From Maricaulis maris MCS10 (GTDB lineage Bacteria; Pseudomonadota; Alphaproteobacteria; Caulobacterales; Maricaulaceae): 64,000 nt of DNA. Below are positions 5,717 to 60,324 of this stretch, in pieces. The notes beneath the pieces are model-generated. The model searched no databases, was not told where the DNA came from, and worked only from the letters and a program-made list of their open reading frames with translations. Numbering within the stretch: the first letter of the stretch is position 1; every line of letters starts with the position of its first letter. The position numbers and the translations under genes were made by a program. The DNA lies in assembly GCF_000014745.1 (NCBI RefSeq), contig NC_008347.1, positions 1,187,501 to 1,251,500 of the forward strand. Reading direction: 5' to 3'.

Positions 5717-6079
5717 TCAAGCTCGGAGCCAGTCCAATAACCAGCTTTGCAATCGCATCTCGTAGTTCGGCAGGGTGAGCGACACGGCGAGAAATACCGC
5801 GCCAACAATCCACCATATCCAGAATATCCGGCCCGGGCTTCCGCACCACAACGCCAGCGTCAGCGAGAACGCGAGCATGCCGGTCGCCCCCCAAGCGAAC
5901 CAATCCTGCCAACGTGCAAAGAAACCGAGCTTTGCAACCAAGCCGGAGGCGACACCAAGTTGAACAAGTAGGATCGGAACCACGCAGCAGGACGCGCCGA
6001 CAAAAGCGAGAAAGCCGCTGACTGCCCCGCTGCCAGATACGAAGGATGAAGGGATAAGGTTTTTCTGGGTCGATCTCAT
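5717..6079 (-). CDS. merT: MerT-like mercuric ion transport membrane protein
   Basis: 120 aa with three hydrophobic helices. The first contains GASCCVVPILL, matching the paired cysteines of MerT helix 1 that pass Hg(II) across the inner membrane. The second cytoplasmic cysteine pair of classical MerT is not seen; only WCG occurs later. It is the first gene after the divergent MerR-controlled promoter. The predicted transcription start falls only a few bases before the ATG, so the mRNA may be leaderless. No merP or merA is present in the insert. Confidence 0.78.
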   Translation of the reverse strand: MRSTQKNLIPSSFVSGSGAVSGFLAFVGASCCVVPILLVQLGVASGLVAKLGFFARWQDWFAWGATGMLAFSLTLALWCGSPGRIFWIWWIVGAVFLAVSLTLPNYEMRLQSWLLDWLRA

Positions 6080-6088
6080 AACTGCAGA

Positions 6089-6119
6089 ATGGTAATCCCT
6101 GTAGTAACTACAGGATCAA
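6089..6119 (-). promoter_or_regulatory. MerR-type operator/promoter with 19-bp spacer driving the merT operon
   Basis: On the minus strand, -35 TTGATC (6119-6114) and -10 TACCAT (6094-6089) are separated by 19 bp. The spacer contains the dyad CCTGTAGTTACTACAGG (6098-6114). An over-long 19-bp spacer filled by a dyad is the hallmark of MerR-family activated promoters, where the regulator untwists the DNA. Confidence 0.82.
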
Positions 6120-6149
6120 GAGAAATTTGCATGGGGACAGGTTGACCCG

Positions 6150-6566
6150 ATGAAGGGACCGCTTAAACGAGGCGCCGTCGCGAAGCTGTTGGACTGCAAC
6201 ATCGAGACGATCCGATACTATGAGAGCATCGATCTGGTCGCCGCATCGGCGCGCTCCGACGCTGGCCACAGGCTGTTTTCGCAGGCGGACGTCGAGCGCC
6301 TGCGGTTTGCACTTCGGCTAAGACAGTTGGGATTTGCTCTCGCGGAAGTCAGGGAACTTCTTACCATGACGGAGAAGCAGACCTTTTCCTGCAAACAGGT
6401 TGCAGGGATTGCCGAGATGCATCTGTCCCAAATCCATCGCAAGGTCGCCGATCTCAGGCAGCTCGCAGCGTCTCTGGAAGAGATCACGAGCCAGTGCCAG
6501 CGCACAGACACGCCGGACTGTGCGCTCGTCCTGTCGTTGAAGGCGCCGAATAAACCGCTAAACTAG
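6150..6566 (+). CDS. merR: MerR-family metal-responsive transcriptional regulator
   Basis: 138 aa. The N-terminal winged helix contains the MerR signature ETIRYYESIDLV (near residue 20) and the following wing, then a dimerisation helix. Three cysteines (in FSCKQV, SQCQR and PDCALV) sit where mercury-binding MerR proteins have Cys82, Cys117 and Cys126, although the last two are 8 rather than 9 residues apart. It diverges from merT across the dyad promoter and probably both represses and activates it. Mercury specificity is likely from cysteine placement and from MerT, but untested. Confidence 0.85.
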   Translation: MKGPLKRGAVAKLLDCNIETIRYYESIDLVAASARSDAGHRLFSQADVERLRFALRLRQLGFALAEVRELLTMTEKQTFSCKQVAGIAEMHLSQIHRKVADLRQLAASLEEITSQCQRTDTPDCALVLSLKAPNKPLN

Positions 6567-6680
6567 CGCCTGGAAGTGATCCAGACTGTACGGAAGACCG
6601 TCAGGATGGTTTCGGTGCCGACAAGTTGCGATAGCGGGAGCAGCGAGAGCGCTGCCCGATCATTCCAAAATTCATGACTT

Positions 6681-6715
6681 AAGGGTTTGAGTTCAAATTC
6701 AACCCACCGCACCCT
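6681..6715 (+). repeat. tRNA 3'-end-like fragment, candidate attachment site bounding the mer-like insert
   Basis: The stretch contains GAGTTCAAATTCAACCC followed by ACCGCACCC, resembling the T-arm, acceptor strand and CCA region of the tRNA at 4490-4566 (GGTTCAAATCCTACCC then CCGCACCC). About 26 of 34 positions agree by eye with one gap. The 5' two thirds of a tRNA is absent. It lies just past merR and before the thrC stop codon, as expected for the far attachment site of an element integrated at the tRNA 3' end. Confidence 0.55.
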
Positions 6716-6743
6716 AAAAGAACTCCGCCAGACAACGCGAACC

Positions 6744-8042
6744 TCACCGCGCCAAAACCCCAGCCAGCTCCGGCAATGCCACCCCCATCTCCCGACATCG
6801 CGCCTCGCGTTCCAGCACCGCTTCCAGCGCAGGTGGCAGGGCGACCGTCTGGCCGATCACCGGCTCGACCGTGTCGGCGAATTTTGACGGGTGAGCTGTC
6901 GCGCCGATGATCCAGCGGCGGGCCTGGCGCTGGTCGGTGTCGAGGGTGTGGAAGGTTTCCAGGGCGGTGGCGGTGTGGGGGCAGGCGATGTAGGCGGACT
7001 GGTCGAAGGTGGCGCGCAGGCGGGCCTTGATGGCGTCGTCGTTGACGCGGATCACGGTCTCGATCTGGCCGGGCGGGAGGTCGGCGAGGCGTTCAAAATT
7101 GCTGGGGGTGCCGACATCCATGGCATTGGCGAGGGTGGCGATGGAGGGGCGGCCTTCATACTGGCCCGAGGCATGCCAGTCCGACAGGGTCGCATTGGCA
7201 TTGGTGGCCAGCACGATCGGGCCGATCGGGACGCCGCAGGCGCGGGCCAGCACGGCGGCGAAAGCATTGCCCAGATTGCCGGTCGGGATGATCAGGCCGG
7301 GCGGCGTGCCGGTCTCGGCGGTGACGTCCAGCGCGGCGCGGGCCCAATAGGTCATCTGCGGCAGGAAGCGGCCGATACTGATCGAATTGGCCGAGGTGAG
7401 ATTGTGCCGGCGAGCGAGATCGGGGTCGGCGAACGCCGCCTTGACCAGGGCCTGGCAGGCGTCGAAATCGCCGCTGACCCGCACGGCCTCGACCGGCGGT
7501 TCCCAGCAGCACAGCTGGTGCTCCTGGAAGGGCGAGATCCGGCCGGCCGGGAAGAGGATGACGGCGCGGGTGCCGGCGACGCCTTCCGCCGCGCAGCCGA
7601 CGGCCCCGCCGGTATCACCCGATGTGGCGACCAGTACGGTAACCAGCCTGTCGGTCGTTTGTCCCAGGGCGGCAAAGGCGCGGAACAGGAAGCGGGCCCC
7701 GAAATCCTTGAAGGCGCCGGTCGGCCCGTGGAAGAGCTCGAGTATGTCCGGGCCGGGACTGGCGTTGTTATCGGTATGGGCGAGCGGTATGCGCGGGCAG
7801 GGGAAGTCGAAAGCGTCGGCGCAGATCGAGGGCAGGGCGGTTTCGATGGCGCTGTCGGCGAAGAAGGGCGCGAGCAGTCGGGCGGCGAGGCCGGGCAGGT
7901 CGGGCGTATCGCTGAAATCGCCCGCCGTGAAGCGCGGCAATTCCTGCGGCATGTAGAGACCGCCATCGGGCGCGACACCGGCGCGCAGCGCGGCTCCGGC
8001 ATCGACCAGGGGAGCCTGGCCTCGGGTCGAGCGATACATCAT
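6744..8042 (-). CDS. thrC: Threonine synthase
   Basis: 432 aa, pyridoxal-phosphate enzyme converting O-phosphohomoserine to threonine. GPTGAFKDFGARF (about residue 107) carries the Schiff-base lysine, the N-terminal MYRSTRGQAP and DGGLYMPQ are typical of the threonine synthase N-terminal domain, and a glycine-rich PLP-phosphate loop (PTGNLGNAFA) is visible. Its ATG overlaps the thrB stop by four bases (ATGA), so it is the last gene of a translationally coupled thrA-thrB-thrC operon. No strong terminator was seen downstream; the next sequence is the tRNA-like fragment. Confidence 0.96.
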   Translation of the reverse strand: MMYRSTRGQAPLVDAGAALRAGVAPDGGLYMPQELPRFTAGDFSDTPDLPGLAARLLAPFFADSAIETALPSICADAFDFPCPRIPLAHTDNNASPGPDILELFHGPTGAFKDFGARFLFRAFAALGQTTDRLVTVLVATSGDTGGAVGCAAEGVAGTRAVILFPAGRISPFQEHQLCCWEPPVEAVRVSGDFDACQALVKAAFADPDLARRHNLTSANSISIGRFLPQMTYWARAALDVTAETGTPPGLIIPTGNLGNAFAAVLARACGVPIGPIVLATNANATLSDWHASGQYEGRPSIATLANAMDVGTPSNFERLADLPPGQIETVIRVNDDAIKARLRATFDQSAYIACPHTATALETFHTLDTDQRQARRWIIGATAHPSKFADTVEPVIGQTVALPPALEAVLEREARCREMGVALPELAGVLAR

Positions 8043-8983
8043 TCCACCGACTCCACACGCAGGCCGGCCGAGTCGATAGGCGCGTCATAGGCGTTGGCGT
8101 CGCAATTGGCGGCGCGGAAGGCGGCGGCCATGGCGCGCTCGACGGCGGTGAGCTCGGTCTCGGCGGCCCAGGCAAAAACCGAGGGGCCGGAGCCGGAGAA
8201 GGAACATCCCAGCGCGCCCGCCTCGAGCGCGGCGGTCTGGACCGCAGCTAGCTCGGGCAGGAGGGGCAGGCGTTGGGGTTCGATGAAGATGTCGCTCAGC
8301 CCGGCGCGGACCAGGTCGAGATCATTGATGGCGCAGCCGGCGACGAAGCTTGCCATGTTGCGGGCATGCTCGACCGCGATGTCCTTGGCGATGGTCGGGG
8401 CGAGCAGTTCGCGGGCGCGCTGGGTCTCGACCTTGCGGTCGGGATGGAAGAGGACGCAGGCAACACCGGCGGGCAGCGGCAGGCGGCGGATCAGCGGCGG
8501 GTCAAGGCGGCCGGCGACCACCAGACCGCCCATCAGGGCCGCCATGACATTGTCCCAGGGCGGCGGGTCGGCGGAGACTTTCTCGCCCTCCATGGCCAGC
8601 GGCAGGAGTTCACTCAGGCTGAAGGGCGATCCGAGCAGGGCATTGACGGCACCGGCAGCGGCGACGGCCGAGGCGGCGGATCCGCCCATGCCGGCACTCA
8701 GCGGCACACCCTTGTGGATGTCGACGACAAGGCCGCAAGGCGAGCCGGCGGCTTTGAGGACGGCATCGGCGGCGGCGAGGGCGCAATTGTCGGCGACGGC
8801 TTCGGGCAGTTGTTCGACCAGTCCGGAGACATGGCCGAGCCTTGTTCCCGGCGCCGTATCACGATGGACCGTGACCGTATCGCGCACGGCATCGAAGGCG
8901 AGGCCGAGCACATCAAAGCCGACCCCGACATTGCCGATACTGGCTGGTGCACTTGCGCGCGCCAGCGATGGTTTTTTGCTCAT
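8039..8983 (-). CDS. thrB: Homoserine kinase (GHMP family)
   Basis: 314 aa. PASIGNVGVGFDVLG near the N-terminus and SAGMGGSAASAVAAAGA near residue 90 are motifs 1 and 2 (ATP loop) of GHMP kinases, and the C-terminal FSGSGPSVFA is motif 3. It phosphorylates homoserine for threonine synthase. The length matches thrB of the E. coli type rather than the unrelated ThrB2 (aminoglycoside kinase-like) common in alphaproteobacteria. Four-base overlaps at both ends couple it to thrA and thrC. Confidence 0.96.
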   Translation of the reverse strand: MSKKPSLARASAPASIGNVGVGFDVLGLAFDAVRDTVTVHRDTAPGTRLGHVSGLVEQLPEAVADNCALAAADAVLKAAGSPCGLVVDIHKGVPLSAGMGGSAASAVAAAGAVNALLGSPFSLSELLPLAMEGEKVSADPPPWDNVMAALMGGLVVAGRLDPPLIRRLPLPAGVACVLFHPDRKVETQRARELLAPTIAKDIAVEHARNMASFVAGCAINDLDLVRAGLSDIFIEPQRLPLLPELAAVQTAALEAGALGCSFSGSGPSVFAWAAETELTAVERAMAAAFRAANCDANAYDAPIDSAGLRVESVE

Positions 8984-10782
8984 GCCACCGTCCTCGAGGA
9001 CATCTGGCGACCATGGCTAAGTGGATTCTCCGGCTGGTGCGACGCGCTTTGCGCCGGCAGCAGGGTTTCGCGCTGGATATCCATGATGTCGGCGAAGACG
9101 GCCTCCGCGGTCGGCCAGCGGCCCGCCCCCTTGCCGAACACGCCGACCTGTCCACTCGGCAGGTCGAGCAGGGCGCCATTGCCCTCATTGACCAGTCCGG
9201 CCAGCGGATGATCCGGCGCCAGGGCGCGGATCTCGACCCGGGCCTCGACCCCGCCATCCGCGGTCGTGCTGCAACAGGCGATCTGTTTGAAGACCAGCCC
9301 TTCTTCATTGACCGCGGCGATGCGCTCGGCCGACAGGTCGCTCAGGCTCTCGCAGGCGATTTGGTCGGGATGGAGGGCGACGCCGAAGGCGTGGCGGACC
9401 AGGATGGCCAGCTTGTCGGCAGCGTCGAGACCGTCAATATCGGCGCTCGGATCGGCCTCGGCAAAGCCCAGGCGCTGGGCTTCGGCGACGGCTGCGGCGA
9501 GCGGCACGCCCTGGCCCAGCTGGCCGAGCACGAAATTGCAGGTGCCGTTCAGCACGCCTTCGACCGACAGCAGCGTGTCATGGCGGGCGAGCAGGTCGAC
9601 GAGTTCAAGAATGGGGACGCCGCCGCCAATGGTGGCCGAATAGCGCAGGGAGCGGCCATTCTCCTCGGCCAGCTCGTGCAGGCGGTCAAAGTCGAGGGCG
9701 ACCACGGCCTTGTTGGCGGTGACGAGGTGTGCGCCTTCGCGCAGCACGCTTTGTGACAGGGCGCGGGCCAGGCCGGTACCGCCAATGGTTTCCACCACGA
9801 TATCCGGTTCACCGCCCAGCGCCCTGGCCGGATCGTCGGTGAAACTCAGTTCGGCGGCTGCCCCGGCGCTGTGCTGGGCCGGGTCGCGGACCAGGACCGG
9901 GTTCAGCGTGAAACGGCCGGGATGGGCGAGCAGGTGCGCGCAGACACCGGCACCGACCGCGCCATGGCCGAGCACCGCAACCCGCATCGGCTTCATCTCC
10001 AGACCATCGCCGGCGCGTTGCTCAACGGCGGCGATCCGCGTTGCATAGGGGCGGCCAAGGGCGGCGACCTCGATGACGACATCCTGTTCCTTGGCGCGGG
10101 TGATGGCCTTGTCCTGCACCAGACCCCGGCTGACCCTGGCGGCTTCGTCATAGTCCAGCTGGTCGAACCGTTTGGCATTGGCGACCTTGGCCGGATCATC
10201 GGTATAGACCCCGTCGACATCCTTGATCAGGCGCACCCGGTCGGCGCCCAGCCAATGGGCGAATTCGACCGCCGTCAGATCCGTGCCGCCCCGACCCAGG
10301 GTGACAGGACCATCAGCGCCTTCGCCAAAGAAACCCGGTGCCACGATCACATCGACCGATGCGAAGCGCTTGAGCACGCGGCTGGCGTCGAGACCGGTGA
10401 GGTTGGCATCCAGGGCCTCGCCTTCAGCCCGCAGCCCCATTTCGTGGGGGTCAAGGACGGCCGAGGGGATGCCGGAACGTTCCAGGGCGAGGCCCATCAG
10501 GGCCGCCGACTTCAACTCACCGCAGCGCACCAGGCGCGCCAGCAGGGCATCGCTGCAGCCCTGGCCGACATCATTGCCGACCCCGAACAGCGCATCGGTC
10601 TCGCCATCGAGCGCCGAGACCACCGCCACGACTTTCTCGCCGGCGCGGACATGGCGATAGATCTCGTGGGCGGCGCGGGCATAGTCATCCGGCTTGAACA
10701 GGACTGAGCTGCCGAATTTCAGCACGCAAAGTTTGAGAGGGCGGTCGGCTTGGTCTGGCTGGGGTTGGTCTGGCAAGGCCAT
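8980..10782 (-). CDS. thrA: Bifunctional aspartokinase-homoserine dehydrogenase lacking the internal ACT region
   Basis: 600 aa. Residues about 17-255 are an aspartokinase catalytic domain (KFGSS at 22, TLGRGGTDLTA at 161, KDVDGVYTDDP at 187). Residues about 266-580 are homoserine dehydrogenase (LGHGAVGAGV nucleotide loop, TANKAVVA, GGGVPILELV, GVLNGTCNF, AEADPSADIDGLDAADK). E. coli ThrA is about 820 aa because two ACT-type regulatory domains lie between the catalytic halves. Here only about 10 residues separate them, so allosteric threonine inhibition of the usual kind is probably absent. First gene of the thr operon; control is probably by the upstream attenuator. Confidence 0.93.
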   Translation of the reverse strand: MALPDQPQPDQADRPLKLCVLKFGSSVLFKPDDYARAAHEIYRHVRAGEKVVAVVSALDGETDALFGVGNDVGQGCSDALLARLVRCGELKSAALMGLALERSGIPSAVLDPHEMGLRAEGEALDANLTGLDASRVLKRFASVDVIVAPGFFGEGADGPVTLGRGGTDLTAVEFAHWLGADRVRLIKDVDGVYTDDPAKVANAKRFDQLDYDEAARVSRGLVQDKAITRAKEQDVVIEVAALGRPYATRIAAVEQRAGDGLEMKPMRVAVLGHGAVGAGVCAHLLAHPGRFTLNPVLVRDPAQHSAGAAAELSFTDDPARALGGEPDIVVETIGGTGLARALSQSVLREGAHLVTANKAVVALDFDRLHELAEENGRSLRYSATIGGGVPILELVDLLARHDTLLSVEGVLNGTCNFVLGQLGQGVPLAAAVAEAQRLGFAEADPSADIDGLDAADKLAILVRHAFGVALHPDQIACESLSDLSAERIAAVNEEGLVFKQIACCSTTADGGVEARVEIRALAPDHPLAGLVNEGNGALLDLPSGQVGVFGKGAGRWPTAEAVFADIMDIQRETLLPAQSASHQPENPLSHGRQMSSRTVA

Positions 10783-10914: not shown

Positions 10915-11064
10915 CTACGCCACGCCGGCCGCCCCCCTGGTCCAGGAGGTCGTCGTGATAATCATGGTGGTGGTACCGAGGCCGCCGTCGATGCCGCAGC
11001 CGGTCACGCCCGAACCCGAAAGGGTCGGACGGAGGCTGCTGGTCAGGGTCATGGCGAAGGCCAT
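10915..11064 (-). CDS. thrL: thr operon leader peptide with Thr/Ile control codons
   Basis: 49 aa from the ATG at 11064, which has AGAGGA 9 bp upstream; a second in-frame ATG is at 11052. The C-terminal part reads GLGTTTMIITTTSWTRGAAGVA*, with three Thr, Met, two Ile and three Thr codons in a row. This is analogous to the E. coli ThrL control run of Thr and Ile codons. Ribosome stalling here when charged tRNA-Thr or tRNA-Ile is scarce would disfavour the terminator at 10857-10887 and allow thrABC expression. The peptide itself probably has no other function. Confidence 0.85.
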   Translation of the reverse strand: MAFAMTLTSSLRPTLSGSGVTGCGIDGGLGTTTMIITTTSWTRGAAGVA

Positions 11065-11137
11065 ATCGACAAATCCTCTGCCGCGAGGGCGGCGTGCCGG
11101 TCCAGCATGATTGCTGCACCTGCAAAACGTGATGACA

Positions 11138-11166
11138 AGATGTGCGCAAAAATTTCGCGCGGTCAA
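11138..11166 (-). promoter_or_regulatory. Candidate promoter of the thr operon
   Basis: On the minus strand TTGACC (11166-11161) and ACATCT (11143-11138) are spaced 17 bp apart, about 70 bp before the leader peptide. The -35 is good and the -10 weak. It is the best sigma70-like match in the leader upstream region, which otherwise (11065-11368) shows no gene. Confidence 0.4.
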
Positions 11167-11368
11167 ACCCTTTTTGGCAGAATTCCTGTAATCAGGTGTT
11201 AAAGGGCGCATTCACGAGCATGATTTTCTCCGGTCAGGCGAGTGCGCGCGTTTGGAGAGGGGCTCGCCGGCGGAGCGCGTGCTGGCGCCGGCGGGTCGGG
11301 TCGGGCACTCTTCTGCCCGTCAGCGGGTCTCGCCATGAGGGTGCCCGGGCATATTCGAGGGAGGCGGC

Positions 11369-11779
11369 ATGGTCCGGATGATATTGGCGGTCCTGGCAGG
11401 CGTGATCGCGGGCGGCATCGTGACCGGTGTGCTGGAGGCCCTGGGACATATGGCAATGCCTTTGCCGGAGGGTTTGATCCCTGAAGACCTGAATGACCGC
11501 GAGGCCCTCAACGCGGCTCTCGCGCAGGTTCCGGACGCCAATCGCGTCGCGGTGATCGCGGCCTGGGCCGGCGGGGCCCTGATGGCCGGATGGGTGACCA
11601 CCACGCTGGCGCGGCGGCATCATCTGGCGCTGGCCCTGGTCGCCGGCGGCGGCTTGTTGTTCGCCGGGCTGAGCAATCTCATCCTGATCCCCAGCCCGCT
11701 ATGGATGTGGGCCTTCGGTCTGGCAGTCTTCCTGCCGATGGCCTGGCTGGGTTATCGGCTGGCGGGCAAGCGGGGGTGA
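11369..11779 (+). CDS. Small integral membrane protein, function unknown
   Basis: 136 aa with four hydrophobic segments at about residues 3-25, 60-80, 86-105 and 108-128. A short polar loop of about 30 residues rich in acidic residues follows helix 1. The ATG has GGGAGGCGGC directly upstream. No conserved motif that I recognise. It stands alone between the divergent thr leader and a repeat-filled gap. Confidence 0.6.
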   Translation: MVRMILAVLAGVIAGGIVTGVLEALGHMAMPLPEGLIPEDLNDREALNAALAQVPDANRVAVIAAWAGGALMAGWVTTTLARRHHLALALVAGGGLLFAGLSNLILIPSPLWMWAFGLAVFLPMAWLGYRLAGKRG

Positions 11780-11818
11780 GCTCGGGTCGCGCGGAGCGGT
11801 TCTGACTTGTCGTGCCCC

Positions 11819-11922
11819 CCTGGTTCCATGTCTTGAACTCTTCCCTCGACACAAACATTACGCCCCAATCCACAGTCATCCCCCGGATGTCCGCTTCGCG
11901 CGCCCCGTGAGATGACGGTTTT
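11819..11922. repeat. Direct repeat unit 1 with degenerate GTCATCC palindrome
   Basis: CTTGAACTCTTCCCTCGACA followed by ACGCCCCAATCCACAGTCATC is repeated with small changes at 12119-12173. The unit ends in a shortened palindrome running from GTCATCCCCCGG (about 11875) to GAGATGACGG (ending about 11918). Non-coding. Confidence 0.6.
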
Positions 11923-11965
11923 TGAGGATTGAAGGAGAAGAGGCGCGCCTCGCGCGCACCTTGAT

Positions 11966-12095
11966 CCATAGATACCTTGTCAGCCAGCGGGCCGTATCCG
12001 GTTCTTGAGGTCAAGGGCGGCGCAGCCGCCGCTTCGCGGTTTCACCCTTGAGCTCAAGAACCGGATACGGCTAACTCCCGGCAAGGGATTTATGG
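11966..12095. repeat. 130-bp palindromic repeat element, copy A
   Basis: Exactly 130 bp, the same length as copies B (45633) and C (61071). The inner arms GCCGTATCCGGTTCTTGAG and its exact reverse complement flank a conserved centre that includes GCTTCGCGGTTTCACCCTTG. The outer arms begin CCATAGATACCTTG and end AGGGATTTATGG. Non-coding; the whole element would fold into one long hairpin with bulges. Confidence 0.88.
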
Positions 12096-53383: not shown

Positions 53384-54484
53384 TTACACCAGCTCTTTCA
53401 GCTTCTCGGCGCTGAAGTCTTCCAGCTCGTCGAAACGGCCATCACGAACCTTGGCGGCCCATTCCGGGTCGGAGATGAGGGCGCGGCCGACGGCGACGAG
53501 GTCGAACTCATTGCGTTCGAGGCGTTCGATCAGACCGTCAAGCGAGGCCGCAGGCGAGTTCTCGCCCATGAAGGCACCGATGAAGTCGGAGTTGAGGCCG
53601 ACCGAGCCGACCGTGATGGCCGGCTTGCCGGTCAGTTTTTGGGTCCAGCCGGCAAGGTTGAGCTCTGAGCCTTCAAATTCCGGGATCCAGAAGCGGCGGG
53701 TCGAAGCATGGAAAATGTCGACACCCGCATCGGAGAGCGGACCGAGGAATTCGCCAAGCGCGTCAGGCGTTTCGGCCAGGCGGGCATTATAGTCCTGCTG
53801 CTTCCATTGCGAATAGCGCAGGATGAGCGGCAGGTTGGCCGGGATTTCGGCGCGGATGGCCTTGATGATCTCCTGCACGATGGTGGTGCGTTCAGTGAGC
53901 CCCCCGCCATAGCGGTCATCGCGCTGGTTCATGCCGTCCCAGAAGAACTGGTCGAGCAGATAGCCGTGGGCGCCATGCATCTCGATGGCATCAAAACCGA
54001 TATCGGCCGCGGCCCTGGCAGCCTTGGCGAAGGCGGCGATGGTGTCGGCAATGTCCTCGGCGCTCATCGGCTCGCCGACCTGTTTGCCGCCAGGCACAAT
54101 GCCGGAGGGGCTGTCGGATTTGGCGTCCGGGTGCGGACCGGTACCCGGCTTGCGGGCCAGGCCGACATGCCAGAGCTGCGGCGCGATCTTGCCGCCGGCC
54201 TTGTGCACCGCATCGACAACGGTTTTCCACCCCGCCAGCGAGTCGGGCCGATGAAAATTCGGTATGGACGGGTCGAAACTGGCGCCGGGCCGGTCAACGG
54301 TCGTGCCCTCGGTGATGATCAGGCCGACGGCGTTCTCGGCGCGGCGCCGGTAATAGTCGACGACAGGTTGGCCCGGCACACCATCAGGGCTTTTGGAGCG
54401 CGTCATTGGCGCCATCACAATGCGGTTGGGCAGTTGCAACGAACCCAGCGAGAAGGGCTTGAAGAGGGCGTCGGTCGGGGTCAT
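53384..54484 (-). CDS. Old yellow enzyme family NADH:flavin oxidoreductase (alkene reductase)
   Basis: 366 aa, FMN-binding TIM barrel. PNRIVMAPMTRSK at the N-terminus, LWHVGL, and IEMHGAHGYLLDQFFWDG with the two active-site histidines are the family marks; DRYGGGLTERT follows. Such enzymes reduce activated C=C bonds (enones, nitroalkenes, N-ethylmaleimide). The start at 54484 (MTPTDALF) has AAGGAC upstream; the frame is open to 54652 without support. Monocistronic. Confidence 0.94.
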   Translation of the reverse strand: MTPTDALFKPFSLGSLQLPNRIVMAPMTRSKSPDGVPGQPVVDYYRRRAENAVGLIITEGTTVDRPGASFDPSIPNFHRPDSLAGWKTVVDAVHKAGGKIAPQLWHVGLARKPGTGPHPDAKSDSPSGIVPGGKQVGEPMSAEDIADTIAAFAKAARAAADIGFDAIEMHGAHGYLLDQFFWDGMNQRDDRYGGGLTERTTIVQEIIKAIRAEIPANLPLILRYSQWKQQDYNARLAETPDALGEFLGPLSDAGVDIFHASTRRFWIPEFEGSELNLAGWTQKLTGKPAITVGSVGLNSDFIGAFMGENSPAASLDGLIERLERNEFDLVAVGRALISDPEWAAKVRDGRFDELEDFSAEKLKELV

Positions 54485-54646: not shown

Positions 54647-55651
54647 ATGCAATCAATGGCCGCCCCTGACCGAACCCCGTTCAATACCCGCCTGGTCCGC
54701 ACGGTGTGCCAGCGCCAGGGGTGGCAATTTCTCGATCTGGATGGCGGCGAGGGCTATCTCTTCGCTGTCGAGGCCGGCGGGCGCCGCGTCCATTGCGGAT
54801 CCGGCGCGATCTGTGCCTATCCCGGCAACTCCGCGACTGCCTATACAATCGCGCGCGACAAGGCCTTCACGGCGGCGATGCTCGCTGAGGCCGGACTGCC
54901 GCATCTTCCTACCTCGCTCTACTTTCTGGAAACGACACGCCGGCATTTGCGCGCGCCGGGGCGCGAGCGCGCCGATCTTGAGCAATGGGGGGCGACAGCA
55001 AGCTACCCGGTCTTCGCCAAGCCCAATCGCGGTGCCCATGGTGATTTGGCCGAACAGATCCGAGACCATGACGGCTTGCTCGACTATCTGGACCGCGCGG
55101 CCCGCACATATGACCAGGTCGTCGTGCAGCCCTATGTGGAAGCGGCAGAGTTTCGGGTATTGGTTGTCGCCGGCGAGGCGCGGTTTCAATACCAAAAGGT
55201 CTCGGGCGGGCTGGTTGGTGACGGCCAGTCGAGCTGGCGCGAGCTGCTGGAGAGCCTCAACAGGAATTTGCAGGACAACGCGTTGAGCCCGGTTACTGGC
55301 ACGGATTTCGCCGCCGGCCTGGAAGCGCGGGGGCAGGGCGCTGATGACATCTCTGAGGCAGGGGTGTCTGTGCTGTTGCCTGGTCGCGGCAATCTGGCCA
55401 CCGGTGGACAAGCGGTCGGGTTCACGACCGACGTGGACCCCGACCTGTCCGGGCTGGCCGTCGGGGCGACGAAGGTGCTGGGTCTGGACGTCGCCGGGGT
55501 CGATCTGCTCAGGCCGGCTCCGGGCGCTCCGGTCGTGCTGGAAGTCAATGCCAATCCCAGCTTCGCCTCCCTGGAATCGATTGGCGAGCATGCGGTGGCA
55601 GAGGCGTTGTGGACCGATATCCTGGCTCGCGCCCTGGCGGCTGCGCCATGA
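54647..55651 (+). CDS. ATP-grasp ligase resembling the ATP-grasp domain of cyanophycin synthetase
   Basis: 334 aa. AYTIARDKAFTAAMLAEAGLP opens the ATP-grasp fold; YPVFAKPNRGAHGD carries the ATP-binding Lys and glycine-rich loop; RGNLATGGQAVGFTTDVDP and VLGLDVAGVDLLRP are the arrangement seen in the CphA ATP-grasp domain (RxNLSTGG, GLDxAGxD); VLEVNANPSF supplies the metal-binding Glu and Asn. It should ligate an amino acid or amine to a carboxylate via an acyl phosphate. Its stop overlaps the start of the FolC-like ligase gene by four bases. The N-terminal domain of CphA is absent. Glutathione synthase/RimK relatives are the alternative. Confidence 0.75.
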   Translation: MQSMAAPDRTPFNTRLVRTVCQRQGWQFLDLDGGEGYLFAVEAGGRRVHCGSGAICAYPGNSATAYTIARDKAFTAAMLAEAGLPHLPTSLYFLETTRRHLRAPGRERADLEQWGATASYPVFAKPNRGAHGDLAEQIRDHDGLLDYLDRAARTYDQVVVQPYVEAAEFRVLVVAGEARFQYQKVSGGLVGDGQSSWRELLESLNRNLQDNALSPVTGTDFAAGLEARGQGADDISEAGVSVLLPGRGNLATGGQAVGFTTDVDPDLSGLAVGATKVLGLDVAGVDLLRPAPGAPVVLEVNANPSFASLESIGEHAVAEALWTDILARALAAAP

Positions 55652-56967
55652 GGGCCAGCACGCTCGATCTGCCGCGCTTTGGCGATGGGGTCGGACTGGC
55701 CCGCACAGCTGCGATTGCAGCGCGGCTTGGCCTTGATCTGCCCGCTATCGGGCGCCGGTCGGTCGTGATCGCCGGCAGCAATGGCAAGGGTAGTGTCGCG
55801 CGCATGCTGGGCGGGCTGTTCCAGGCTGCCGGCGAACGGACCGGCCTGTTCACCTCGCCCCATCTGCAGGCCTTCAATGAGCGCTTCGAACTGGCCGGCG
55901 AGATGATTGCCGACAATCGACTGCAGGCGCTGGAAGCCCAGATCGGGGCGGCCGTCAGCGACCATCTCGCCGATCATCCGGGTGATCAGGCCTGTGCCTT
56001 TGAAGCCGGCTTCCTGACAGCGCTGTTGTGGTTTGAGCAAGCGGGCGCCGAGCGGCTGGTCATCGAGGCAGGCATTGGTGGACGTTATGATCCGACCCGG
56101 CTCCTGCAGGCGCCGGTCGTCGCCCTGGTCAGCCTGGACCGCGAGCACATGCCGCTGCTGGGACACACTTTGCGCGAGGTCGCCCTGGACAAGCTCGACG
56201 TGGCCCCGCCCGGCGCGCGCGTTGTCATCGGCCGCAGTTTTGAAGGCGAACGCCCCGTTCTGGCGGTGATGGCGGGCCTCAAGCCGGTGCGGCCCCTCTG
56301 GGTCGCAGACCAGTATGGCCCGTCCGGCAGCGAGGACAGGCTGGCCGGGCATCATATCACCATCCGGCATCGCGAGCGCGGCCCGCTGCGTGTCCTGACG
56401 CCAATGCACGGGCGGTTTCAGGCCGACAATCTGGAAGTCGCACTGGAAGTGCTGGCTGAGGCCCGGCCCGACCTGTTCGCAAACAACTGGCCCGGCAGTG
56501 TGGCGGAGGCGCTGGCGCATTGCACCAATCCGGCCCGGATGGAAGTCCTGCCATTGGGCGCAGATGATGGCGACGGTGAGCCGGGGCTGATTATCGATGC
56601 GGGACACTCTCCGGCCGGTATCGCCGCTGCTGTGTCCGGCGTCGCGACCTTGCTGGACGGACGACCGGCGCGGCTATTGCTGGCCATGTCGGCGGACAAG
56701 TCCGTTGACGCCATGCTCGACCGGCTTGCACCGGCCTTTGACGATGTCGTCGTGTCGGCCCTGCCGGGAGGCGTGCCGGCAGCCTTGCTGGAAGCGGCCT
56801 ACCGTCAGCGCAACCCGCGTGCCCGACTTCAACTCGCCCCGACGGCGGCGCAGGCCATCGCTGCCGCGCAGTTGCCGCAGGACGGCCGGGTGCTGGTGGG
56901 ACTGGGAGGACTGTTCTGGGCGGCGGCGCTTCGCGACGCCTGGTTGATGGCCTGTACCGGCGCTTGA
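55648..56967 (+). CDS. Mur ligase family protein, folylpolyglutamate synthase-like
   Basis: 439 aa. VIAGSNGKGSVARMLGGLF is the P-loop with the FolC-style NGKGS, GLFTSPHLQAFNERF is the typical TSPHL motif, and DREHMPLLGHTLREVALDKLDV and DAGHSPAGIAAAV replace FolC's DHxxxLGxTxxxIAxxK and DGAHNP. It catalyses amide-bond formation from ATP, a carboxylate and probably an amino acid. Two deviations (SNGKGS for TNGKGS, DAGHSP for DGAHNP) and coupling to an ATP-grasp gene argue that it is not the housekeeping folate enzyme. With the ATP-grasp partner it mirrors the two active sites of cyanophycin synthetase. Confidence 0.78.
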   Translation: MRASTLDLPRFGDGVGLARTAAIAARLGLDLPAIGRRSVVIAGSNGKGSVARMLGGLFQAAGERTGLFTSPHLQAFNERFELAGEMIADNRLQALEAQIGAAVSDHLADHPGDQACAFEAGFLTALLWFEQAGAERLVIEAGIGGRYDPTRLLQAPVVALVSLDREHMPLLGHTLREVALDKLDVAPPGARVVIGRSFEGERPVLAVMAGLKPVRPLWVADQYGPSGSEDRLAGHHITIRHRERGPLRVLTPMHGRFQADNLEVALEVLAEARPDLFANNWPGSVAEALAHCTNPARMEVLPLGADDGDGEPGLIIDAGHSPAGIAAAVSGVATLLDGRPARLLLAMSADKSVDAMLDRLAPAFDDVVVSALPGGVPAALLEAAYRQRNPRARLQLAPTAAQAIAAAQLPQDGRVLVGLGGLFWAAALRDAWLMACTGA

Positions 56968-57028
56968 AACGACTGGCAAACAGTGTTCACTTTTCCTACA
57001 GTGCCGAAGACACGGTATGGGAGCTGAC

Positions 57029-58522
57029 ATGTCCGAGAACGAATTTGACGTCCTGATCGTCGGGGCTGGACTGTCCGGCATCGGCGCCGCCTACCACTTG
57101 CAAACCCGCTCTCCCGGACGCAGCTATGCCATCCTGGAATCGCGCGATGCGATCGGCGGAACCTGGGACCTGTTTCGCTATCCCGGTATCCGCTCGGACA
57201 GTGACATGTACACGTTCGGCTATGCCTTCCGGCCCTGGACCGGAGGCAAGGCGTTCGCGGATGGTCCGTCCATTCGCCAATATGTCCGCGACACGGCGAG
57301 CGAAAACGGTATCGACCAACATATCCACTTCGGCCACCGCGTTGTCGCCGTGGACTGGCAGAGCACGTCGGCGCGCTGGCAGGTCACGGCAGTTGATGGC
57401 GCGGGCAAGGAGCAGGTCTTCAGGGCCCGCTTCGTTTTCCTGTGCTCGGGCTATTATCGGTATGAAAAAGGATATCTCCCCGAATTTGCGGGATATGATG
57501 ACTTCAAGGGCGAAATCGCCCACCCGCAATTGTGGGACGGCGCGCTCGATTATGCCGGCAAGCGGGTCGTCATCATCGGTTCCGGTGCGACCGCGGTAAC
57601 CCTGGTCCCGGCAATGGCCGAGACGGCCTCGCACGTCACGATGCTGCAAAGGTCACCGACCTATATCGCGTCGCGTCCATCGATTGACGGGCTCGCCGTG
57701 TCCATGAGCAAGATGCTGCCGGCCAAGCTCGCCTACCTGATCGCACGCATCAAGAATATCGGCGTTTCCATCCTGACCTACCAGCTCTCAAGGCGATGGC
57801 CCGACTTTGTAAAGAAGGGCGTCCTGAAAGCGGTGAAAGCGGAGCTGGGTGAGGGCTTCGATGTCGAGAAGCATTTCACGCCGAGCTATAATCCCTGGGA
57901 TCAGCGCTTCTGCCTCGCGCCGGACGGTGACGTCTTCAAGACCTTGAAATCCGGCAAGGCGGACATCGTCACCGATCATATCGAGCGTTTCACGCCGACC
58001 GGTATCCAGCTCAAGTCCGGCGAAATCCTCGAGGCCGACATCATCGTCCCGGCGACCGGGCTGGAGATGCAGCTGGCAGGCGGGGCCCGGATCTCGCGCG
58101 ACGGTGTGGTGGTCGAGCCGGCTGACCTTTACACCTATCGCGGCATGATGCTGGGGGATGTGCCCAATCTGGCGCTCGCCTTCGGCTATACCAATGCGTC
58201 ATGGACCCTGAAGGTCGATCTCACCTGCGAGCGTGTCTGCCGCATGCTCAATCACATGGAGAAGACCGGAACTGACATCGCGGTACCGCAGGTGCCCGAC
58301 GACATCACGCCCGAGCCGCTGCTCGACTTCTCGTCCGGCTATGTCCAGCGGGCCATTGCGCACCTGCCCAAGCAGGGCGATCGGGCTCCCTGGAAGACCT
58401 ATCAGAACTATGTCCAGGACATGCTGGCGATCCGCTTCGGCAAGCTGGAGGACGGCTATATGACCTTTTCCAAGGCGCCCGGCCCGGTCGGTCAGCTGGC
58501 AGCCCGGGAGGCCGCGGAATGA
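57029..58522 (+). CDS. Flavin-containing Baeyer-Villiger-type monooxygenase
   Basis: 497 aa. GAGLSGIGAAYHL is the FAD Rossmann loop, GGTWDLFRYPG and the fingerprint FKGEIAHPQLW (FxGxxxHxxxW) mark Baeyer-Villiger/CzcO-type monooxygenases, and GSGATAVTLVP is the NADPH loop. They insert oxygen into ketones or hydroxylate long-chain substrates. The start at 57029 uses GGGAG 6 bp upstream; an ATG at 57017 is the alternative. First gene of a four-gene operon with SDR, hydrolase and membrane protein. Confidence 0.92.
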   Translation: MSENEFDVLIVGAGLSGIGAAYHLQTRSPGRSYAILESRDAIGGTWDLFRYPGIRSDSDMYTFGYAFRPWTGGKAFADGPSIRQYVRDTASENGIDQHIHFGHRVVAVDWQSTSARWQVTAVDGAGKEQVFRARFVFLCSGYYRYEKGYLPEFAGYDDFKGEIAHPQLWDGALDYAGKRVVIIGSGATAVTLVPAMAETASHVTMLQRSPTYIASRPSIDGLAVSMSKMLPAKLAYLIARIKNIGVSILTYQLSRRWPDFVKKGVLKAVKAELGEGFDVEKHFTPSYNPWDQRFCLAPDGDVFKTLKSGKADIVTDHIERFTPTGIQLKSGEILEADIIVPATGLEMQLAGGARISRDGVVVEPADLYTYRGMMLGDVPNLALAFGYTNASWTLKVDLTCERVCRMLNHMEKTGTDIAVPQVPDDITPEPLLDFSSGYVQRAIAHLPKQGDRAPWKTYQNYVQDMLAIRFGKLEDGYMTFSKAPGPVGQLAAREAAE

Positions 58523-59352
58523 GCCGGCGCTTCGTTTATTCCGGCCGGACGGCGCTGATCACCGGGGCCGCCAGCGGCATTGGTGCAGCGCTGGCGGCGG
58601 GATTGGCTGCGCGCGGTGCCAGTCTCATCCTGGTCGATATCAATGCAGACGGGCTTGATGGCGTCGCGGCACCTTTGCGGGCGGATGGGTGTGCGGTCTC
58701 GACCTTCGTGGTCGACATGGCCGATGCCGCGGCCATTGCCCGGCTGGCAAAGGATGTCGAAGCCAGCGGCGCGCCGGTCCATCTCCTCTTCAATAATGCC
58801 GGTATCGCGCTGGGCGGGATGTTCGAGGACGTTGAAATGGCCGATTTTGAACGCCTGATCGACATCAATCTTTATGGCGTCATCCGCATGAGCCGGGCCT
58901 TCCTGCCCAGGATGCGCGCGGTTGATGAAGCCCATATCGTCAATATTTCCAGCATCTTCGGAATCGTCGCGCCGGCCGGCCAGGCAGCCTACTCAACGGC
59001 CAAGTTTGGCGTGAAAGGCTTTTCCAACGCCTTGCGGCATGAGCTCGCCGGGTCGTCCATCGGGGTGACAACGGTCCATCCGGGCGGGGTCGCAACGCAG
59101 ATTGCGGCCAGCGCAAAATCGCCACCGGGAGCGTCGCCCGAGGAGATGGAAGCGGCCCGCAAGCAGACGCAGCGTCTGCTGGTCATGCCGCCAGCCGAAG
59201 CAGCGCGGATCATCCTTGATGGCGTCGCGCGCAGGAAGCCGCGCATATTTGTCGGCCGGGATGCGCACACCATGATGTGGCTGGAACGGATCTTCCCGAC
59301 CCGCTACTGGTCGATTCTTCAAAAAATGGTCGGCGCCAAGCGCGCCTCCTAG
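58519..59352 (+). CDS. Short-chain dehydrogenase/reductase
   Basis: 277 aa. TGAASGIGAALA is the TGxxxGIG cofactor loop, NNAGIA follows, and YSTAKFGVKGF holds the YxxxK catalytic pair with a Ser (NISSIFG) upstream. It oxidises an alcohol or reduces a ketone with NAD(P). Coupled to the monooxygenase by ATGA overlap, so an alcohol-ketone-ester route is likely. The C-terminal extension (about 45 residues) is basic and may associate with the membrane. Confidence 0.93.
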   Translation: MSRRFVYSGRTALITGAASGIGAALAAGLAARGASLILVDINADGLDGVAAPLRADGCAVSTFVVDMADAAAIARLAKDVEASGAPVHLLFNNAGIALGGMFEDVEMADFERLIDINLYGVIRMSRAFLPRMRAVDEAHIVNISSIFGIVAPAGQAAYSTAKFGVKGFSNALRHELAGSSIGVTTVHPGGVATQIAASAKSPPGASPEEMEAARKQTQRLLVMPPAEAARIILDGVARRKPRIFVGRDAHTMMWLERIFPTRYWSILQKMVGAKRAS

Positions 59353-59361
59353 GGGTCATTC

Positions 59362-60324
59362 ATGCTTACTGTTCTTCTTGCCGTTCTTGGTGGCATCATC
59401 CTGATCTTCATCCTGGCGCTGTTCATCGCCTGGCGCTTCAGCCACATGGTGGCGAAGAAGGCGTCGGCTGCATTGCCGCCAAAGGGTCATTTCACCGAGG
59501 TGTCGGGCGGCCGCCTGCACTGGATCGAAAAGGGCGAGGGGCAGCCGGTCGTGATGATCCATGGCCTCGGCGGGAATCATCATAATTTCACCTATGCCAT
59601 GACCGAGCGCCTCGCCGCTGCCGGCTATCGCGCCATCGCGGTCGATCGTCCCGGCTGCGGCTGGTCCGAGCGCGACAGTGACGAGCAGGCGCGGGTCCCC
59701 GAACAGGCCCGCATGATCGCCGAGATGCTGGAGAAGGAGGGCATCGACAAGCCGCTCCTGGTTGGTCATTCGCTGGGCGGCGCCGTGTCACTGGCCCTGG
59801 CTGTCAATCATCCCGACCGCGTTGGCGGACTGGCCCTGGTCTCGGCCCTGGTCACACCGCCCGACACGCCGGCCGAAGCCTTTGCCGGTATCGATATCGC
59901 CAATCCGGGCATGCGCCGTTTCATCGCCGAGACCATCGCCATCCCGATGTCGATCCGCAATGGCGCCAAAACGCTGGCAATCATCTTCGGCCCGGACCCG
60001 GCGCCGGAGGACTTCCGGACCCGCGGTGGCGGTCTTTTGTCCATGCGTCCGGACGCTTTTTACGCTGCGGCCACTGATCTCACCGCCGTTGGCAAGGACA
60101 TGCACGCCATCACCGCCCGGATCGGCGAGATCCAGGTCCCGGTCGGGATGTTCTACGGCATGGCGGACCGCATCCTCTCGGCCCCGGAACAAATCGCCGC
60201 ACTCAGCGCGGCCCTGCCAGATGCCGATGTCGAGACGATGGAAGCCCGCGGCCACATGCCACCCGTAATCGAGCCGGAGCGGCTGGAGGCATTTATTGTG
60301 CGCATGGCGGGGAAGCTGGGCTAG
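59362..60324 (+). CDS. Membrane-anchored alpha/beta hydrolase
   Basis: 320 aa. A hydrophobic helix (residues 3-24) precedes the hydrolase core with oxyanion HGLGGNHHNF, nucleophile elbow GHSLGGAVSL, and later MADRILSAPEQ (Asp) and RGHMPPVIEPE (His). It probably hydrolyses esters such as those formed by the monooxygenase. Nine bases separate it from the SDR gene. Confidence 0.9.
   Translation: MLTVLLAVLGGIILIFILALFIAWRFSHMVAKKASAALPPKGHFTEVSGGRLHWIEKGEGQPVVMIHGLGGNHHNFTYAMTERLAAAGYRAIAVDRPGCGWSERDSDEQARVPEQARMIAEMLEKEGIDKPLLVGHSLGGAVSLALAVNHPDRVGGLALVSALVTPPDTPAEAFAGIDIANPGMRRFIAETIAIPMSIRNGAKTLAIIFGPDPAPEDFRTRGGGLLSMRPDAFYAAATDLTAVGKDMHAITARIGEIQVPVGMFYGMADRILSAPEQIAALSAALPDADVETMEARGHMPPVIEPERLEAFIVRMAGKLG

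Follow-up and report, generated by a model that had tools for sequence, protein, structure and literature searches.

An overlapping ATP-grasp and FolC-like gene pair in Maricaulis maris as a candidate two-enzyme amide-ligase module

We analysed a 64,000-nucleotide stretch of the Maricaulis maris MCS10 genome (the window; positions 1187501-1251500 of a single contig of 3,368,780 bases), in which two intact ORFs on the plus strand, at 54647-55651 and 55648-56967, are real genes for two different ligases. We give roughly even odds to the reading that they form a two-enzyme, ATP-dependent amide-ligase module that makes a small isopeptide, a peptide-tailed metabolite or a coenzyme, and not cyanophycin. 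Each protein has the fold of a ligase and retains the catalytic residues, their genes overlap and are tightly co-inherited, and a separate canonical FolC is encoded in the same genome.

Two overlapping ligase genes

The first gene (54647..55651, plus strand) encodes a predicted ATP-grasp amide ligase of 334 amino acids (P0001), so assigned from its translation, profile searches, an AlphaFold model and a tree. The second (55648..56967, plus strand) encodes a 439-residue FolC-like ligase of the Mur superfamily (P0002), a paralogue of canonical FolC judging by its translation, TIGR01499, an AlphaFold model and a tree. An earlier note, made from the DNA alone, had the two genes overlapping by four bases, and indeed the start codon of the FolC-like gene and the stop of the ATP-grasp gene share an ATGA at 55648..55651 on the plus strand. 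The closest named loci to the pair are those of Maricaulis. Upstream lies a minus-strand gene for an NADH:flavin oxidoreductase of the OYE family (53384..54460, PF00724) and downstream a plus-strand gene for an FMO-like monooxygenase (57017..58522, PF00743); both stand outside the system and mark the left and right edges of the cassette. From 57017 to 60324 the window carries a run of FMO-like monooxygenase, short-chain dehydrogenase and alpha/beta hydrolase, a run present in 16 of the 17 FMO-bearing Maricaulis loci whether or not they have the ligase pair. Pfam found no transporter among the flanking genes scanned, and no cyanophycinase was matched in the host genome at E 1e-10, in keeping with the note's observation that neither adjoins the pair.

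The note had further made its reading depend on the window gene not being the only folC of its genome. A second, canonical folC is present at 91499-92704, scoring 347.2 bits against 215.7 for the FolC-like gene. The host also carries its own RimK (270.3 bits) and four Mur-type ligases at about 2.26 Mb. With a canonical folC and a rimK of its own in the genome, neither gene of the pair is the sole candidate for those jobs.

The ATP-grasp protein

The best NCBIfam model for the ATP-grasp protein is TIGR02068, cyanophycin synthetase, which it matches with 99.6 bits at positions 204-448 of 862, far below the cut-off of 850. The RimK family TIGR00768 (83.2 bits, cut-off 143.4), the NAGGN synthetase TIGR03103 (76.7 bits, cut-off 569) and the GshF model (59 bits) also fall below their cut-offs, and no NCBIfam family cut-off is passed. 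Two Pfam domains do pass, the RimK domain PF08443 (42.2 bits, cut-off 21) and PF07478 (26.5 bits, cut-off 24). Pfam and NCBIfam profiles found no GNAT domain in the protein, and profiles found no CphA N domain. The AlphaFold model (pLDDT 90.8) has its best structural matches in CphA1, ArgX/LysX and GshF, with RimK matched as well.

For the tree we used 89 rows, including 40 pair loci, with duplicates of the CphA and NAGGN loci removed. One pair clade took in 44 rows (SH-aLRT 98), made up of 39 of the 40 pair loci and five hits from the class sample; the 12 RimK rows formed their own clade (SH-aLRT 96), and the CphA and NAGGN rows fell on another branch than the pair clade (SH-aLRT 94, not starred). 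The tree was quickly built, is unrooted, has long branches and contains no rows of GshB, GshF, MptN, CofF or Myf. On these sequences the ATP-grasp protein is a member of a clade of its own beside CphA, NAGGN synthetase and RimK, and not inside CphA. Its grouping is thus away from RimK, and also not within CphA, where the reading as a split cyanophycin synthetase would have put it, with GshB and GshF compared by profile and fold scores. All six motifs quoted for the pair were located in the two translations, RGNLATGGQ, GLDVAGVD and VLEVNANP in the ATP-grasp protein, and the description of these three blocks as CphA-specific holds only in part, since the N..GG block occurs in NAGGN synthetases too.

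Residues of TeCphA1 were placed on the protein by counting along a CphA1 segment, a mapping of our own, and the residue table omits L100, L119 and L126. K125, R170, N249 and D286, which correspond to K261, R309, N394 and D431 of TeCphA1, are invariant in the four main ATP-grasp clades, while E299 (E450) and N301 are each kept in all but one row. In its account of residue roles in TeCphA1, PMC9427784 has R323 and R458 binding aspartate, with R458 holding the alpha-carboxylate of the incoming one. The position of R323 (184) is lysine in all four main clades, including all ten Maricaulis rows (seven distinct); at the place of R458 (307) these ten have alanine in eight and serine in two. The P-loop residue 131, equivalent to H267 of TeCphA1, is histidine in 10/10 of these rows. 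In the first Hyphomonadaceae clade residue 131 is asparagine in 16/19 rows and position 307 alanine in 15/19; the other Hyphomonadaceae clade has arginine at both positions (10/11 and 9/11), as do the Nitrobacteraceae-type rows (34/34 and 34/34). The P-loop histidine is found in only two of the eight CphA-type rows of the same alignment and is therefore weak evidence for or against likeness to CphA.

The FolC-like protein

The second protein, which carries SNGKGS, TSPHL and DAGHSP, scores 215.8 bits with the folC model TIGR01499, above its cut-off of 162.65, and 9.8 bits with TIGR02068. Its AlphaFold model (pLDDT 91.0) matches FolC/FPGS structures in the first 17 places, followed by MurE and MurC. 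In a tree of 70 rows, 36 FolC-like rows and 30 canonical rows are sister clades (supports 88 and 93), with two CphA and two Mur rows outside both FolC sides (support 98). The profile score, the folds and the tree position bear out the earlier claim that the protein is closer to FolC. By its sequence it is an ancient paralogue of FolC and not the MurE-like half of CphA.

Across 84 FolC-like rows (80 distinct), NGKGS, E140, D148, H167, K182, R297, D317, H320 and K351 are kept in 82 to 84. NGKGS, E140, H167 and K182, present in 83-84 of them, we take to be the catalytic P-loop, glutamate, histidine and lysine of Mur/FolC ligases. F118 (84/84), E119 (83/84) and D148 (84/84) are held in common with canonical FolC, where they occur in 29/30, 24/30 and 30/30 rows, and R19 is present in 84/84 FolC-like rows against 17/30 canonical ones; R19, F118 and E119 may have a part in a pterin pocket. 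Passages of PMC10812664 and PMC7809127 give no residue roles. Positions that are fixed or nearly so in canonical FolC are mostly switched in the 84 FolC-like rows: T44S in 74, N151R in 77, P162S in 76, D166E in 84, Q299E in 79, N321 to T or S in 83 and S421G in 77. This change, with the catalytic core intact, suggests that the FolC-like protein has taken on new substrates.

Conservation and co-inheritance of the pair

In an order-level search of 249 genomes, the ATP-grasp protein had a match in 69 at E 1e-12. At the top, 33 places with E 1e-34 or better resemble the ATP-grasp family of the pair, and the weaker matches are mostly frames of about 590 residues or longer, as in NAGGN synthetase or CphA. 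We examined 30 of the best 33 loci, the window's own included, leaving out three of the 33 and weaker matches in G133 and G224, and found the FolC-like gene beside the ATP-grasp gene in 30/30. Twenty-four rows went into alignments A1 and A2: L020 is represented by the window protein, and 23 of the other 29 loci supply the rest, after L027, L036 and L046-L049 were omitted because they had stops or odd ends or were of partial length. Scanning a collection of genomes at species level yielded 188 ATP-grasp relatives, and among the best 80 of these the FolC-like gene was found at 75 loci, on the same strand in 74 and with a FolC-like profile score of at least 310 bits at all 75. Co-occurrence, which the earlier note had put forward as a check, thus came out in favour of the pairing, and the presence of both genes at all 30 order-level loci and at 75 of these 80 argues that they are not chance ORFs.

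The five loci of the best 80 without an adjacent FolC-like gene (L086, L107, L123, L125 and L126) are all divergent in the ATP-grasp protein; relatives lacking an adjacent partner belong to Methylococcaceae, Oceanicaulis, a Parcubacteria bin and a deltaproteobacterial bin. In the Oceanicaulis bin (L125) the FolC-like gene lies on a separate 28.6 kb contig, scoring 375 against 169 with the canonical profile, and that contig has no ATP-grasp match. In a Flammeovirgaceae bin (L122) the FolC-like gene is on the opposite strand, and a 378-aa ORF with no Pfam match at 1e-5 lies between the two genes (10942-12075). Hosts of the pair include Maricaulis, Hyphomonadaceae, Bradyrhizobium, Rhodopseudomonas, Tardiphaga, Xanthobacteraceae and that one Flammeovirgaceae bin. 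Eight of 385 genomes in a class sample reached at least 147 bits with the profile of the pair ATP-grasp protein, and four of 398 in a phylum sample matched at E 1e-40, the window's own included and all from the host's class.

Overlaps of 1, 4 or 8 bases were seen in 62 of the 74 same-strand pairs, with start codons chosen by rule, and adjacency spans several families at 44-47% mean identity. For 70 non-redundant loci the protein distances of the two partners show a correlation of r 0.937, a value equalled in 0/999 permutations, and the nearest neighbour is common to both proteins in 44/70 loci; the co-inheritance is in part a matter of shared species history and is no proof of one metabolite. 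A pair-type ATP-grasp gene is present in 48 genome handles (47 distinct, G190 and G641 having identical coordinates), of which 46 have at least two FolC matches; G353 has a single one and G314 is without any. Both FolC matches of G252 are in the canonical range, at 375 and 353 bits, and the match to which both profiles were applied is of canonical type (548 against 168.5), so that G252 and G353 seem to be without any FolC-like gene. The canonical-type FolC match of G190 is partial.

Beyond the pair itself, neighbour genes differ from lineage to lineage, and thus no pathway context backs one single product; the neighbours examined included no transporter, hydrolase or regulator common to different lineages. 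At one locus (L218, G370:C4:44000-60000, about 5885-10550, minus strand) an AccD-like gene, a canonical folC, the ATP-grasp gene and the FolC-like gene follow on one strand, the only case seen of the pair adjoining canonical folC. In 22 loci of Nitrobacteraceae type, an ORF of one cluster lies on the opposite strand no more than 5 kb from the pair; its member in L082 (5980-7644), the one member read, has the glutamate synthase domain PF01645. These two neighbourhoods are weak hints on the module, and neither fixes a substrate. Another genome has tandem ATP-grasp matches (G493:C62:25406-27339), to which the pair profile gives 147.7 and 100 bits; the 16 kb read around them contain no match to the FolC-like profile. 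Titles and abstract openings of the matches listed in the open literature contained no description of this gene pair.

The pair within Maricaulis

Of 19 Maricaulis genomes, 17 carry the FMO gene. Six of these have the FolC-like gene immediately upstream of it; in four, OYE adjoins FMO directly and the pair is absent; the remaining seven have neither OYE nor the FolC-like gene within 1.5 kb of FMO. Among the matches listed, the pair ATP-grasp gene occurs in 5 of 12 Maricaulis genomes. Over the ten comparisons among five Maricaulis genomes, mean identity was 0.645 for the ATP-grasp and 0.584 for the FolC-like protein, against 0.920 for canonical FolC, 0.941 for OYE and 0.860 for FMO. This low identity may reflect either fast change or exchange of divergent copies. 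In the pair genes codon position 3 differs most (0.53-0.55, against 0.23-0.32 elsewhere in the codon), which speaks for selection on the proteins.

Cyanophycinase and CphA

We searched 44 handles for cyanophycinase, three bearing CphA and 41 with a pair-type ATP-grasp gene (39 with the pair, plus G252 and G353). Only one of the 41 was over the cut-off (G177), with G077 under it, and both matches lie on contigs other than the pair's; in two of the three CphA-bearing genomes cyanophycinase is right beside CphA. Two of 14 named control genomes match cyanophycinase, among them Caulobacter vibrioides, which has no CphA match at E 1e-100, so that a cyanophycinase match alone is no sign of cyanophycin. 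One alphaproteobacterial genome (G326; contigs 8, 85 and 108; L189, L193, L196 and L198) has four CphA-type matches, one of which adjoins a cyanophycinase.

Discussion

ATP-grasp and Mur/FolC folds both make acyl-phosphates and amides. Two enzymes in succession build the amino-acid tail of F420 (CofE, then CofF) and that of methylofuran (MyfA, then MyfB, both ATP-grasp), according to passages of PMC8498797 and PMC8141765. This family chemistry, together with these two-enzyme tails, favours two sequential ligations on one small acceptor for the pair. The FolC-like enzyme would convert a carboxylate of the acceptor to an acyl-phosphate and join it to an amino acid, perhaps glutamate; the ATP-grasp enzyme would likewise activate a carboxylate of that product and extend it by a further amino acid or a short tail. 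We infer that both enzymes are active, work on one common product in this order and use glutamate as one substrate.

One alternative, which we consider unlikely, keeps the pair within folate metabolism. The FolC-like protein would be a dedicated folylpolyglutamate synthase, canonical FolC would serve dihydrofolate synthesis, and the ATP-grasp enzyme would cap or extend the tail by another linkage, as CofF does on F420. Such a role would fit F118, E119 and D148 being common to both kinds of FolC, the arginine at position 19 in every FolC-like row, the leading FolC/FPGS fold matches and the pair that directly follows canonical folC in G370. That folC neighbourhood is, however, found in one lineage only, most fixed positions of canonical FolC are switched (D166E in every row, N321 in all but one), and the patchy presence in Maricaulis (5/12 listed), with 58% identity against 92%, is unlike an enzyme of an invariant cofactor.

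About equally improbable is a specialised-metabolite or storage module whose product, a free short peptide or poly-amino acid of lineage-variable composition, has no coenzyme acceptor. The cassette-like presence, with a clean OYE-FMO junction in the four Maricaulis genomes without the pair, the rapid divergence with catalytic residues kept, and the clade-wise variation of the P-loop (131) and acceptor-side (307) residues would all suit it, whereas the neighbours examined hold no common transporter, hydrolase or regulator and cyanophycinase exceeds its cut-off in a single genome of the 41.

That the genes are mere neighbours, one a spare FolC and the other an ATP-grasp enzyme unrelated to it, brought together by chance or by shared transfer, is quite improbable. 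The opposite strands and intervening ORF of L122 and the different contigs of the Oceanicaulis bin speak for it, but both genomes retain both genes, and unless the two had a role in common, adjacency at 44-47% mean identity across families, with frequent overlap, would be difficult to account for.

The earlier note had read the pair as a split cyanophycin synthetase. What stands of this is two overlapping amide-ligase genes and an ATP-grasp fold of CphA/GshF type; the ATP-grasp clade of its own and the FolC-type partner indicate that the pair is not a CphA cut in two, and we rejected a split by descent on the same two grounds, so that the likeness to cyanophycin synthetase holds only as an analogy of logic and not as ancestry. 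Production of cyanophycin or a close relative is very improbable even so, for although CphA1 ranks with the best matches by structure and by profile, the two-ligase logic is the same, Maricaulis has the P-loop histidine of TeCphA1 and two other clades have arginine at the R458 place, the second protein is FolC-derived, the CphA N domain is absent, Maricaulis has alanine or serine for R458, and cyanophycinase exceeds its cut-off in 1/41 pair-type genomes against 2/3 CphA-bearing ones.

Returning to two sequential ligations on a small acceptor, we tentatively suggest an undescribed two-enzyme pathway of alphaproteobacteria in which an ATP-grasp enzyme and a neofunctionalised FolC make a peptide-tailed metabolite or coenzyme, possibly with at least two types of acceptor, following the clades with H131, N131 or R131 and A307 or R307. 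If the two enzymes do have a common product, the pair points to a small molecule, so far uncharacterised, in bacteria of soil and sea, and evolution would have reached the two-ligase logic of cyanophycin synthetase by a second route. A FolC paralogue that passes the FolC cut-off and is perhaps not a folate enzyme may also be annotated as FolC, a risk in Maricaulis, Hyphomonadaceae, Bradyrhizobium, Rhodopseudomonas and Tardiphaga.

Comparison with known systems

Like CphA1 (TIGR02068), the pair combines an ATP-grasp domain with a Mur-superfamily ligase, presumably on one product, and keeps the equivalents of K261, R309, N394, D431 and E450. It differs in having two chains for one and no N domain, in the lysine for R323 in the four main clades and the alanine or serine for R458 in Maricaulis, and in the rarity of cyanophycinase in its genomes. 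The Mur half of CphA is close to MurE and MurF in the portion of PMC11915815 that treats it, whereas that of the pair is of FolC type. With FolC (TIGR01499) the second protein shares the fold, the catalytic residues and a profile score above the cut-off; it differs in a clade separate from all 30 canonical rows used, in SLD.EH and D.GH[TS]P in place of LDH and GHN, and in the canonical copy elsewhere in the host genome.

The NAGGN synthetase (TIGR03103, 76.7 bits) has a similar N-terminal part and an ATP-grasp domain, while the pair protein has no GNAT match, has a FolC partner and sits on a separate branch. RimK, MptN, CofF and MyfA-MyfB are likewise ATP-grasp ligases that join amino acids to a carboxylate. 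The pair protein falls outside the RimK clade (83.2 bits against a cut-off of 143.4) in a host with its own RimK, and, unlike RimK, CofF and Myf, it has a FolC-type ligase for a partner. CofE with CofF and MyfA with MyfB, as described in those passages of PMC8498797 and PMC8141765, are cases of two enzymes building the tail of one coenzyme.
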